DNA from: Planctomycetia bacterium | GTDB lineage: Bacteria; Planctomycetota; Planctomycetia; Pirellulales; UBA1268 | Direction: 5' to 3' | DNA length: 64,000 nucleotides | NCBI GenBank assembly: GCA_026401035.1 | Contig: JAPLNR010000034.1 | Span: 1 to 64,000, forward strand | Part shown: one piece after another, positions 28,927 to 32,234 of the stretch | Numbering within the stretch: position 1 is the first letter of the stretch | How the letters are laid out: every line of letters starts with the position of its first letter | Notes under the pieces: generated by a model | Database searches by the model: none | What the model was told of the DNA's origin: nothing | The model's input: only the letters and a program-made list of their open reading frames with translations | Program-made: the position numbers and the translations under genes

Positions 28927-29484
28927 ATGCCTCGCCCCAGATTCCGCATCCCGCCGCCTCCCCCCGGCCTGCCGCGCCGCTGGCGGCCCTGGTATCTCGC
29001 GGCCGCGGCAATGCTCTCGGCGATCATCGCGGTGCTGCCGGCCTGCCCTGTGCAGGATGCCGCCGGCCGGCCGGTCTGGAGGGTCGATACCATCCACGAC
29101 GGCGACACGGTCACCTGCATCGACACGGCCGGAAAACCGCAGAAGATTCGGCTGCTGGGTATCGACGCCCCGGAATTCGACCAGCCCTACGGTCGTCTGT
29201 CGCGAAACGGACTCGCCGAAAAACTCAGCCGCGGTGGCGTCCGGGTCGAGGGCACGGCCCGCGACCAGCATGGGCGGCTGCTCGGCAGGCTCTGGATCGA
29301 CGACCGCGACCTCAACCGCGAGATGGTTGCCGATGGCCTGGCCTGGGTATTCGGCGGTTTCGCGCCCAATCCCGATCTGGTCGCTGCCGAAACCGCCGCC
29401 CGCAGGGCCCACCGCGGGCTCTGGGCCGATCCGCACCCGGTGGCCCCTTCCCAATGGCGATCGGAGCACCCCGCCCATCGCTGA
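28927..29484 (+). CDS. Thermonuclease (SNase-like) family protein
   Basis: VDTIHDGDTVTCIDTAGKPQKIRLLGIDAPEFDQPYG, NREMVADGLAWVF. Confidence 0.85.
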   Translation: MPRPRFRIPPPPPGLPRRWRPWYLAAAAMLSAIIAVLPACPVQDAAGRPVWRVDTIHDGDTVTCIDTAGKPQKIRLLGIDAPEFDQPYGRLSRNGLAEKLSRGGVRVEGTARDQHGRLLGRLWIDDRDLNREMVADGLAWVFGGFAPNPDLVAAETAARRAHRGLWADPHPVAPSQWRSEHPAHR

Positions 29485-29548: not shown

Positions 29549-30814
29549 ATGAGCTCTCCGCGGGAAGTCGTCATTACGGGCGTCGGTGTCGTCAGCCCAA
29601 TCGGCATCGGCTGCGGCCCATTCTGGAACGCCCTGGCCAGCGGCACCAGCGGCATCCGGACCATCGATCTCTTCGACTCGAGCTCCCTGAGCGTGCGGTT
29701 CGGCGGCCAGATTCCCGACTTCGACCCGAAGCTGTACGTGAGGCCCCGCAAGAGCCTCAAGGTGATGAGCCGGCAGATCCAGTTGGGCTTCGCCGCAGCC
29801 GACCTCGCGGTCAACGACGCGGGCATCGCCGGCGGCGGCGTTGAACCGGAACGCTTCGGCATCGTCTTCGGCAACGACATGATCTATGCCGATGTCGAGG
29901 ATCTCGAAAGCACGTATCGCCGCAGCACCCGTGACGGCCGGTTCGATTTCGCCCTCTGGTCGGAGGCGATCCAGGAAGAGGTGCACCCGCTCTGGCTGCT
30001 CAAGCACCTGCCCAATATGACGGCCTCCCACATCGCGATCGCCCTCGACGCGCGGGGACCCAACAACACGATCGTGCTCGGCGATGTCTCGAGCCTGCTG
30101 GCGGTGGGCGAAGCTGCGAGTGTGATCCGGCGGGGCTGGGCCGACGTGATGCTCGTCGGCGGCACGGGCTGCCGGCTCCACCCAACGGCGATCGTGGCCC
30201 GTGGCACGGCGCTGCTCTCCCACCGCACCGACGACTGCCGCCGCGCCTGCCGGCCGTTTGACCGCGACCGTGACGGCCTCGTCAACGGTGAGGGTGCGGC
30301 GGCGCTGGTGCTCGAGTCGCGGGAGCACGCCGAGAGGCGGGGGGCGCGCATCCGCTGCCGGCTGCTGGCGACAGCGGCGCGGTGCGAGCCGCGCGCCAGG
30401 CGCGACGGCCTGACGGGTGCCTCGCTGCGGCAGGCGATCCGCGCCGTCCTTCAGGAGGCGAAACTCGCGGCCCACGAGGTCGGCCACATCAACGCCCACG
30501 GCGCGAGCACGATCGAGATGGACCGGGCAGAGGCGGCCGCCATCGCGGCTGAACTGGGGGACGTGCCGGTGACCGCGCCCAAGAGCTCCTTCGGTCACCT
30601 CGGGGCCGCAGGCGGCGTCGTGGAGTTGGCAGCCAGCGTTCTCGGCCTGGAGGCCGGCCTCGTGCCGCCGACGCTCAACTACGAAACGCCCGATCCGCTC
30701 TGCCCGATCAACGTCGTGCACGGCGAACCGCTCGCCGGCCGGCCGGGGACGGCGCTGGCCGTGAACATCTGCTCGACCGGCCAGGCAGCGGCCGTGGCGA
30801 TCGCGAAGCCCTAG
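29549..30814 (+). CDS. Beta-ketoacyl-ACP synthase-like protein lacking the catalytic Cys
   Basis: VVITGVGVVSPIGIG, CRPFDRDRDGLVNGEGAAALVLES, INAHGASTIEMDRAEA, KSSFGHLGAAGGVVE; Cys site reads GPNNTIVLGDVSSLL. Confidence 0.88.
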   Translation: MSSPREVVITGVGVVSPIGIGCGPFWNALASGTSGIRTIDLFDSSSLSVRFGGQIPDFDPKLYVRPRKSLKVMSRQIQLGFAAADLAVNDAGIAGGGVEPERFGIVFGNDMIYADVEDLESTYRRSTRDGRFDFALWSEAIQEEVHPLWLLKHLPNMTASHIAIALDARGPNNTIVLGDVSSLLAVGEAASVIRRGWADVMLVGGTGCRLHPTAIVARGTALLSHRTDDCRRACRPFDRDRDGLVNGEGAAALVLESREHAERRGARIRCRLLATAARCEPRARRDGLTGASLRQAIRAVLQEAKLAAHEVGHINAHGASTIEMDRAEAAAIAAELGDVPVTAPKSSFGHLGAAGGVVELAASVLGLEAGLVPPTLNYETPDPLCPINVVHGEPLAGRPGTALAVNICSTGQAAAVAIAKP

Positions 30815-30851: not shown

Positions 30852-32234
30852 TCACCACGAGCCTTCGCAGCCCAGTGACAGTCCATTGAAGAAGATCTGG
30901 CCGCCGCCATCCATCGGGTTTTGGCGGACGTTGTCCAGATCGAACTGCCGCGTGGCCGTGGCGATACCGGCCACCCAGAGGAAATCGTAGCCGGCCTTGA
31001 GCGAGAAGTTGGGCGTGATGTTCCAGCCCGCGAAGAGCGACAAGTCGCCGACGAAGCCGGGGCCCAGTTGATCGGCGGCGCTCGTGCGGTTGATCGAGTT
31101 TGGCGGCGGCTCGGGCTGTGCCGAGTTGATGCTGACCACCGACTGCTGATTGGCCGCGAAGCTCATCGACGGTGTGACGCGGCCGCGGAGCCCCCAATAG
31201 TAGAATTCGTTTTGGCTGATCAGCTCGCCGCCGAGATTGAAGCCCCAGAGCCAGTTCTGCGTGTCGATCTCGTAATTGCCGCCGAACTCGGTCAGGGGCC
31301 GGTCGTTGCGGCTGCTGGTGAACCGAAACGACTCGTTGACGGTGGCGAGCCGTGTGCCGATGATCAGCGCCGGCAGCCAGGCCCGCTCCGCATGCCGTGT
31401 CCACGTGCCATTGGGAGACATCACGAGCTGGTCACGACCGAGCCGGCGATGGAGCTTGTAGTTCCACTCGAGGCTGTTGAAATTCGAGGTGTGCGACGTG
31501 CCATAGGTTGTGGCGCCGTCGAAGCCGGGGACGTCCGCCAGCGGCGTGACCAGGAAAGAACCCGGCAGGGCATTCCAGGAGTCCTGCTGGGCGTAGGACA
31601 GCCCGCCGTAGAACGTGACTTCCAGCGCGCGATCCCGGTCAAGGTGATCGCGGTCGAGATGCTCGCCGAGCGTGACCCGTGCTCCCGCGGACAGATCGAA
31701 CGGAATGCCCGTCGTGGTGAGCGTGCCGACCGGATTTTCGCTGGGTGTGAAGGTCACGTCATACCCCAACACGCGGCGGTAGTTGCGGCTGCGGTCGAAC
31801 CAGAGCATTTCGGCAGAACCATACCAGCGGCCGCTGGAAAACCAATCGCCACTGCTGGCCTCGTCGGGCATCTCATCGACGCCAAACTCCTGCACGCGAA
31901 GACCATCGGCGGCGCGGGCCGAAACGTCCTCCAGCGTCTGCTCGCGGGGACCCTCGCTCACGGCTCCCTCGACGACAACCTCGTCGTCCACCACCACGCT
32001 CGGGATCATGAGCACCTCGACCGCCGCGTTCTCCTGCTCGATGAGTTCGGCAAACTGGATCGGAACGATTTCCTGATCCGGCTCGGCGGCACGCAGTTGC
32101 GGCGCGACGCCGCCGGCGACGAGCAGGCAGACACTGCCGAGCAGCGTTCGCAGGCGGACGGATGTTGGTAATTCGGTCACGTGTCGGTTCACTGGCGGTG
32201 ATTCGAACTGTGATGGCGCCACTGCCGCCCTCAT
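30852..32234 (-). CDS. BBP7-like outer-membrane beta-barrel protein
   Basis: YGSAEMLWFDRSRNYRRVLGYDVTF; alternating strand pattern; LSLFAGWNITPNFSLKAGYDFLWVAGIATATRQFDLD. Confidence 0.7.
   Translation of the reverse strand: MRAAVAPSQFESPPVNRHVTELPTSVRLRTLLGSVCLLVAGGVAPQLRAAEPDQEIVPIQFAELIEQENAAVEVLMIPSVVVDDEVVVEGAVSEGPREQTLEDVSARAADGLRVQEFGVDEMPDEASSGDWFSSGRWYGSAEMLWFDRSRNYRRVLGYDVTFTPSENPVGTLTTTGIPFDLSAGARVTLGEHLDRDHLDRDRALEVTFYGGLSYAQQDSWNALPGSFLVTPLADVPGFDGATTYGTSHTSNFNSLEWNYKLHRRLGRDQLVMSPNGTWTRHAERAWLPALIIGTRLATVNESFRFTSSRNDRPLTEFGGNYEIDTQNWLWGFNLGGELISQNEFYYWGLRGRVTPSMSFAANQQSVVSINSAQPEPPPNSINRTSAADQLGPGFVGDLSLFAGWNITPNFSLKAGYDFLWVAGIATATRQFDLDNVRQNPMDGGGQIFFNGLSLGCEGSW

Follow-up and report, generated by a model that had tools for sequence, protein, structure and literature searches.

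The window, a stretch of 64,000 nucleotides from a planctomycete of the order Pirellulales, encodes a FabF-like ketosynthase (KS) homologue that is probably a non-condensing KSbeta, resembling the chain length factor (CLF), of a type II fatty-acid/polyketide-like system. Its predicted partner, most likely in a heterodimer, is a cysteine-bearing ketosynthase (KSalpha) that is encoded on another contig of the same genome, C68. The features concerned are listed in Table 1.

Table 1. Positions of the KSbeta gene and its active-site features in the window, its neighbours, and related genes elsewhere in the same genome
Feature	Position	Strand	Remarks
Acidic ketosynthase homologue, KSbeta group A	29549..30814	+	421 aa; FabF fold; without nucleophilic Cys
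RKSLKVMSR, residues 67-75, basic helix at FabF ACP-docking region 1	29747..29773	+	Lys68/Lys71 = FabF Lys65/Arg68
GAT, Asp179 at the FabF Cys163 position	30083..30085	+	From alignments; Asp/Glu in 106/109 group-A sequences
His317, first catalytic His (FabF His303)	30497..30499	+	His in 94/109 group-A sequences
Lys345 to His350 (KSSFGH), FabF Lys335 and His340	30581..30598	+	Lys in 105/109; second His in 60/109, Asn in 37
CSTGQ, residues 408-412, in place of the GFGG gate/oxyanion loop	30770..30784	+	G and Q each in 105/109
SNase-domain gene	28927-29484 (window)	+	Immediately precedes the KS gene; synteny at about 47 loci
Convergent 460-aa ORF	30852-32234 (window)	-	Downstream of the KS; without Pfam match; synteny at about 52 loci
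Second acidic KS, group B	G000:C47:172806-174098 (L009:6786-8108)	-	Glu for Cys, Asn for the second His; loop TPQGQ
Dehydratase, contig C68	L010:7868-8719
ACP, contig C68	L010:7335-7754
Dehydratase, contig C68	L010:6766-7263
KS with Cys (KSalpha), contig C68	L010:5458-6747

A ketosynthase fold without its nucleophile

The N- and C-terminal ketoacyl-synt domains of Pfam are both matched by the window protein (1e-39 and 3e-21). Its AlphaFold2 model (mean pLDDT 93.6) finds its best PDB matches among FabF structures, with a TM of 0.90, and against the curated NCBIfam fabF model TIGR03150 the protein scores 287 bits, below the cut-off of 493.75. The preliminary description had read this open reading frame as a FabF-like ketosynthase in which the active-site Cys is replaced by Asp. 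This reading is borne out by the Pfam domains, the structure alignments and the codon itself. HMMER alignments to solved FabF structures agree with MAFFT alignments of the family and E. coli FabF in placing Asp179 on the nucleophilic Cys, and no alignment puts a Cys at this position. As had also been described, the His of INAHG and the Lys and His of KSSFGH are retained, and the FGFGG loop reads ICSTGQ.

The GFGG loop of FabF has a gating role (PMC7138838). The gating loop with Phe400 and Asn404 is absent from the window protein, and CSTGQA stands there instead. Since both the nucleophile and the gate/oxyanion loop are missing from its sequence, the window protein is unlikely to carry out acyl-chain condensation by itself.

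Compared with members of the same genus and the same family, the gene gives a dN/dS of about 0.10-0.19, a rough value because dS is high (0.8-1.4) and may be saturated. As judged from these comparisons, the gene is under purifying selection. A pseudogene is ruled out by the lack of internal stops among the orthologues listed and by the dN/dS of about 0.1-0.2; a private mutation or a sequencing error is likewise ruled out, as the acidic residue is conserved in orthologues.

Conservation of the acidic residue

The distribution of the window protein's group (group A) was surveyed in 59 genomes, namely the window's own, for which the survey rests on searches, and others of the same order. Group A is present in 54 of them. 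Two of the five genomes without it are less than 80% complete; the other three (G026, G043 and G050), each with a completeness above 95%, keep KSalpha and a second acidic paralogue, group B. Among 109 distinct group-A sequences, mostly from Pirellulales, the nucleophile position is occupied by Asp in 72, Glu in 34, Ser in 2 and Gly in 1, and by Cys in none. The conservation proposed earlier as a check on the Asp thus holds as Asp or Glu in 106 of the 109, with Asp typical of the window's family and Glu commoner in other families. The two sequences with Ser are L060:5995-7302 and L193:5953-7263 (Blastopirellula marina DSM 3645), and the single one with Gly is L188.

Paralogue B is found in the core FAS locus of the window's genome. 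The order of genes there is fabD-fabG-acpP-fabF-(one ORF)-KSbetaB-nusA-infB, in which most of the names flanking paralogue B come from sequence recognition and not from a family search. No Pfam domain is matched by the 352-aa ORF that separates fabF from paralogue B. In another family of the class (L216), too, a B-type KS is located near fabF. The Asp was earlier regarded as an unusual variant. It turned out, instead, to belong to one of two acidic-KS paralogues within a phylum-wide KSbeta clade, and the substitution had already been noted in 2009 (PMC2649909).

The retained histidines and lysine bring to mind the KSQ loading domains (e.g., GfsA), in which the nucleophile is similarly replaced and the His and Lys are partly kept. 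KSQ is a decarboxylase domain of type I PKS with Gln at the nucleophile position, whereas the window protein has Asp. A GFGG-type loop is expected in KSQ domains. By analogy, the window protein could be a malonyl-ACP decarboxylase, with Asp/Glu standing for Gln/Cys and the His pair and Lys making acetyl-ACP to prime chains. Such an activity is compatible with the ACP-docking patch described below and with His317, Lys345 and His350, all of which are kept in the window's family; the full Asp-His-Lys-His set occurs in 54 of the 109 group-A sequences. Nevertheless, the second His is replaced by Asn, Tyr, Cys, Ser or Asp in 48 of the 109 and is Asn in every group-B sequence examined, the GFGG oxyanion/gate loop is gone, and the Gln of KSQ is absent. 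As the two histidines are not both conserved across orthologues, decarboxylation as the shared function is argued against and appears unlikely, though it is possible in the window's own family, where both remain. In addition, FabH is found above its curated cut-off on contig C64 of the window's genome, so that a bypass of priming is not obviously needed, and the idea that decarboxylation rescues a missing FabH is unsupported. The earlier assignment to Cys-less homologues of the partner or decarboxylase type stands as to kind, while decarboxylation as a shared function is not supported.

Tandem KSbeta-KSalpha operons in relatives

A profile built from groups A and B was searched against 200 genomes of the phylum. 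All the acidic KS genes examined outside Planctomycetia stand directly before another KS gene. They do so at L202, L207, L208 and L210-L214 (Asp/Glu), and seven families are represented. The same tandem pair, with Asn in its first copy, is seen at L215, and at L209 an acidic KS precedes a KS fragment at the contig end. The second KS of the tandem carries Cys in all nine complete pairs, together with both His, the Lys and GFGG. Where the gene calls are complete, the operon runs in the order FabA-like dehydratase, ACP, FabA-like dehydratase, KSbeta and KSalpha, with a FabG-like gene in some. In L202:9084-13122, the genes after the Asp-type KSbeta/KSalpha operon encode a GH3-family protein, a methyltransferase and a DUF362 protein that has a ferredoxin-like domain.

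Contig C68 of the window's genome has the same operon as these relatives, in the form dehydratase-ACP-dehydratase-KSalpha, without a KSbeta in between. This KSbeta-less operon, whole or partial, also occurs in other Pirellulales (L223-L227). KSalpha is present in 58 of the 59 genomes surveyed, as a single copy in all but one of them. At L222 (G052:C180, 2087-3430 and 10518-12023), an extra KSalpha copy lies about 7 kb from a group-A KSbeta on the same contig.

KSbeta thus adjoins its KSalpha in the deeper-branching relatives and is separate from it in the window's genome. That the window gene is unlinked from KSalpha in Pirellulales counts against the pairing. The earlier statement that no partner KS or ACP is adjacent is correct for the window's contig, on which no further KS or ACP match was found anywhere. 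It does not extend to the genome as a whole, as the likely partner KSalpha, an ACP and two dehydratases are present on C68.

The genes around the window KS give little guidance. The SNase-domain gene and the convergent ORF are syntenic and have no lipid signal, and these conserved neighbours were set aside as a functional clue. A divergent fatty-acid desaturase gene (PF00487) is found upstream of group A at L053:2254-3351 and at 17 similar loci in several Pirellulales families; it was not seen beside group A in the window's family. This neighbour, with its 18 loci, gives a hint of a lipid product. A stand-alone role may also be considered, either as an acyl-ACP binding or regulatory protein or with a new carboxylate chemistry (e.g., thioesterase or acyl transfer). 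It would suit the dispersed location, the conserved Asp/Glu, Gly-Gln and basic helix, and the adjoining desaturase or GNAT-like gene (the latter at 17 loci) of many Pirellulales families. It would, however, leave the tandem KSbeta-KSalpha operons and the loss of docking residues from KSalpha unexplained, and is held to be very improbable.

Reciprocal retention of nucleophile and docking patch

AcpP is docked in E. coli FabF by Lys65, Arg68 and Lys69 (PMC7138838); according to a figure legend there, most of the AcpP contacts are made by the monomer other than the one to which the acyl chain is delivered. The residues at FabF positions 65 and 68 are both basic in 62 of 62 KSbeta and in 5 of 5 housekeeping FabF sequences, and in none of 36 KSalpha. 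Conversely, the Cys is present in all 36 KSalpha and in none of the 62 KSbeta; both sets of counts come from related sequences and do not represent independent events. Lys68 and Lys71 of the window protein are invariant in KSbeta, and the two positions are never both basic in KSalpha. Docking region 2 (FabF Arg127, Lys128 and Arg206) is not basic in group A and not consistently basic in KSbeta or KSalpha.

Such reciprocal retention would be expected were the ACP to dock on KSbeta while delivering into the active site of KSalpha. In the mechanism proposed, KSalpha would carry out the condensation, and KSbeta would supply the basic helix for ACP docking, which is no longer present in KSalpha. 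KSbeta would also form part of the acyl-pocket wall, as in any KS dimer. The Asp/Glu would occupy the vacated nucleophile site and, along with the broken GFGG gate, may keep the second site from being acylated. A physical KSalpha-KSbeta heterodimer, with KSalpha and not the housekeeping FabF as the partner, is thus a prediction from sequence, and the role of the acidic residue and any effect on chain length or product are likewise predicted.

It has also to be considered whether the partner is the housekeeping FabF, with which the acidic protein would form a heterodimer that tunes fatty-acid chain length. The close paralogue B sits in the core FAS locus and near fabF at L216 as well, and it is present where group A is missing. 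Yet FabF retains its own docking residues in all five sequences, so its homodimer should be self-sufficient, and in the deep relatives the tandem partner is always of the KSalpha type and never FabF. Pairing of the window protein with FabF is accordingly considered improbable. For group B, the position of the gene keeps FabF a live alternative to KSalpha. On the other hand, since the three near-complete genomes without group A keep KSalpha and paralogue B, the latter could be the main partner of KSalpha, with A being secondary.

Phylogeny and history of the pair

The relationships were examined with IQ-TREE (LG+I+G4) on 80 sequences, a tree which resolves the planctomycete KSalpha/KSbeta pair. 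KSalpha and KSbeta are sister clades in it, with a support of 99. The C68 ketosynthase groups with the tandem Cys-bearing partners in KSalpha (support 100), and the window protein falls inside KSbeta (support 100). The window protein, group B and all the tandem acidic copies make up one clade with a support of 98. The clade of A and B has a support of 66, and the relations within group A are weakly supported. FastTree recovered the same groupings with weaker resolution near the root.

Tandem KS pairs of one family, f34 (L203-L206), have Cys in both copies and the ACP-docking Lys pair in the first copy only. These first-position copies, which still carry Cys, are sister to the acidic KSbeta clade, with a support of 100. 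Because the docking split is already present in the f34 KSbeta while its Cys remains, the pairing seems, from these sequences, to predate the loss of the nucleophile. The family suggests an order of events in which the docking was split first and the Cys was lost later.

The simplest history consistent with the sequences would be a tandem duplication of a KS, loss of the Cys in KSbeta, departure of KSbeta from the operon, and then the duplication into A and B in Planctomycetia. A more far-reaching and rather doubtful proposal is that, in Planctomycetota, a single ancestral ketosynthase gave rise to two obligate halves, of which KSalpha retained the nucleophile and KSbeta the surface for carrier-protein docking. 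In Planctomycetia, KSbeta would then have left the operon, been duplicated and come to be a dispersed subunit shared by KSalpha and FabF, with an acid, and not the glutamine of CLF, closing its own site.

Relation to known systems

The fold of the window protein is shared with E. coli FabF (KAS II; TM 0.89 to 1KAS, about 32% identity), as are the basic residues at 65 and 68. E. coli FabF, however, has the Cys and the GFGG loop, whereas the window protein is without either. PDB 9s5h, which has two KS chains, was set aside as a possible planctomycete relative, since each of the three KSbeta queries ranked ordinary FabF above it.

A likely functional parallel is the CLF of type II PKS, as in actinorhodin (1TQY chain B), ishigamide (6KXD) and AntDE (6SMO). 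Both are Cys-less, derived from a tandem KS pair and expected to form heterodimers. CLF has Gln at the Cys position, following the rule exemplified by Gln161 of the act CLF (PMC3691225), whereas the window KSbeta has Asp and its relatives Asp/Glu. Unlike in the CLF systems, the KSbeta of Pirellulales is encoded away from KSalpha, and the planctomycete pair is linked to FabA-like dehydratases, in contrast to the aromatic/polyene pathway of CLF. The window protein is therefore filed as a variant of CLF (KSbeta) and not as a member, since it has neither the Gln nor the adjacency and the tree took in planctomycete sequences without actinobacterial CLF.

Acidic paralogues of FabF have been reported earlier from Rhodopirellula baltica, namely RB3714 (Asp163) and RB4527 (Glu163) (Rattray et al. 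2009, PMC2649909). No function was established in that paper, which speculated on ladderane recruitment only and contained no operon, partner or docking analysis. As compared by the published residues, they share with the window gene the replacement of Cys by Asp/Glu in a planctomycete FabF paralogue, and the window gene is probably of the same kind. The residue set of RB4527 (Glu, His, Lys, Asn, Pro) fits group B.

Rattray et al. also place the R. baltica acidic paralogues with kuste3606 of anammox bacteria (PMC2649909). The anammox genes kuste3603-3606 encode ACP, FabZ, FabF and a non-canonical FabF (PMC4790861). As compared by description, this cluster brings together an ACP, a dehydratase, a canonical KS and a Cys-less KS, like the planctomycete operon. 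It differs in the residues of kuste3606 (Val163, Asn298 and Glu333) and in its radical SAM and desaturase genes. The arrangement appears to be related, with substitutions of another kind.

KS-CLF pairs of Planctomycetes, possibly including the present proteins, have already been catalogued (PMC10132072). A search of the literature for a KS having Glu in place of Cys, or for ladderane FabF heterodimers, yielded no paper. New in the present case are the separate location of the partner, the conservation of the acidic residue and the reciprocal loss.

Discussion of KS-CLF heterodimers usually concerns polyketides and partners encoded side by side. In Pirellulales, the pair is near-universal and appears to be part of a lipid-type system whose two halves lie apart in the genome. 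As nucleophile and docking residues are lost reciprocally, the idea of a heterodimer can be tested directly, and a CLF-like role would give a function to the acidic FabF paralogues of the 2009 report.
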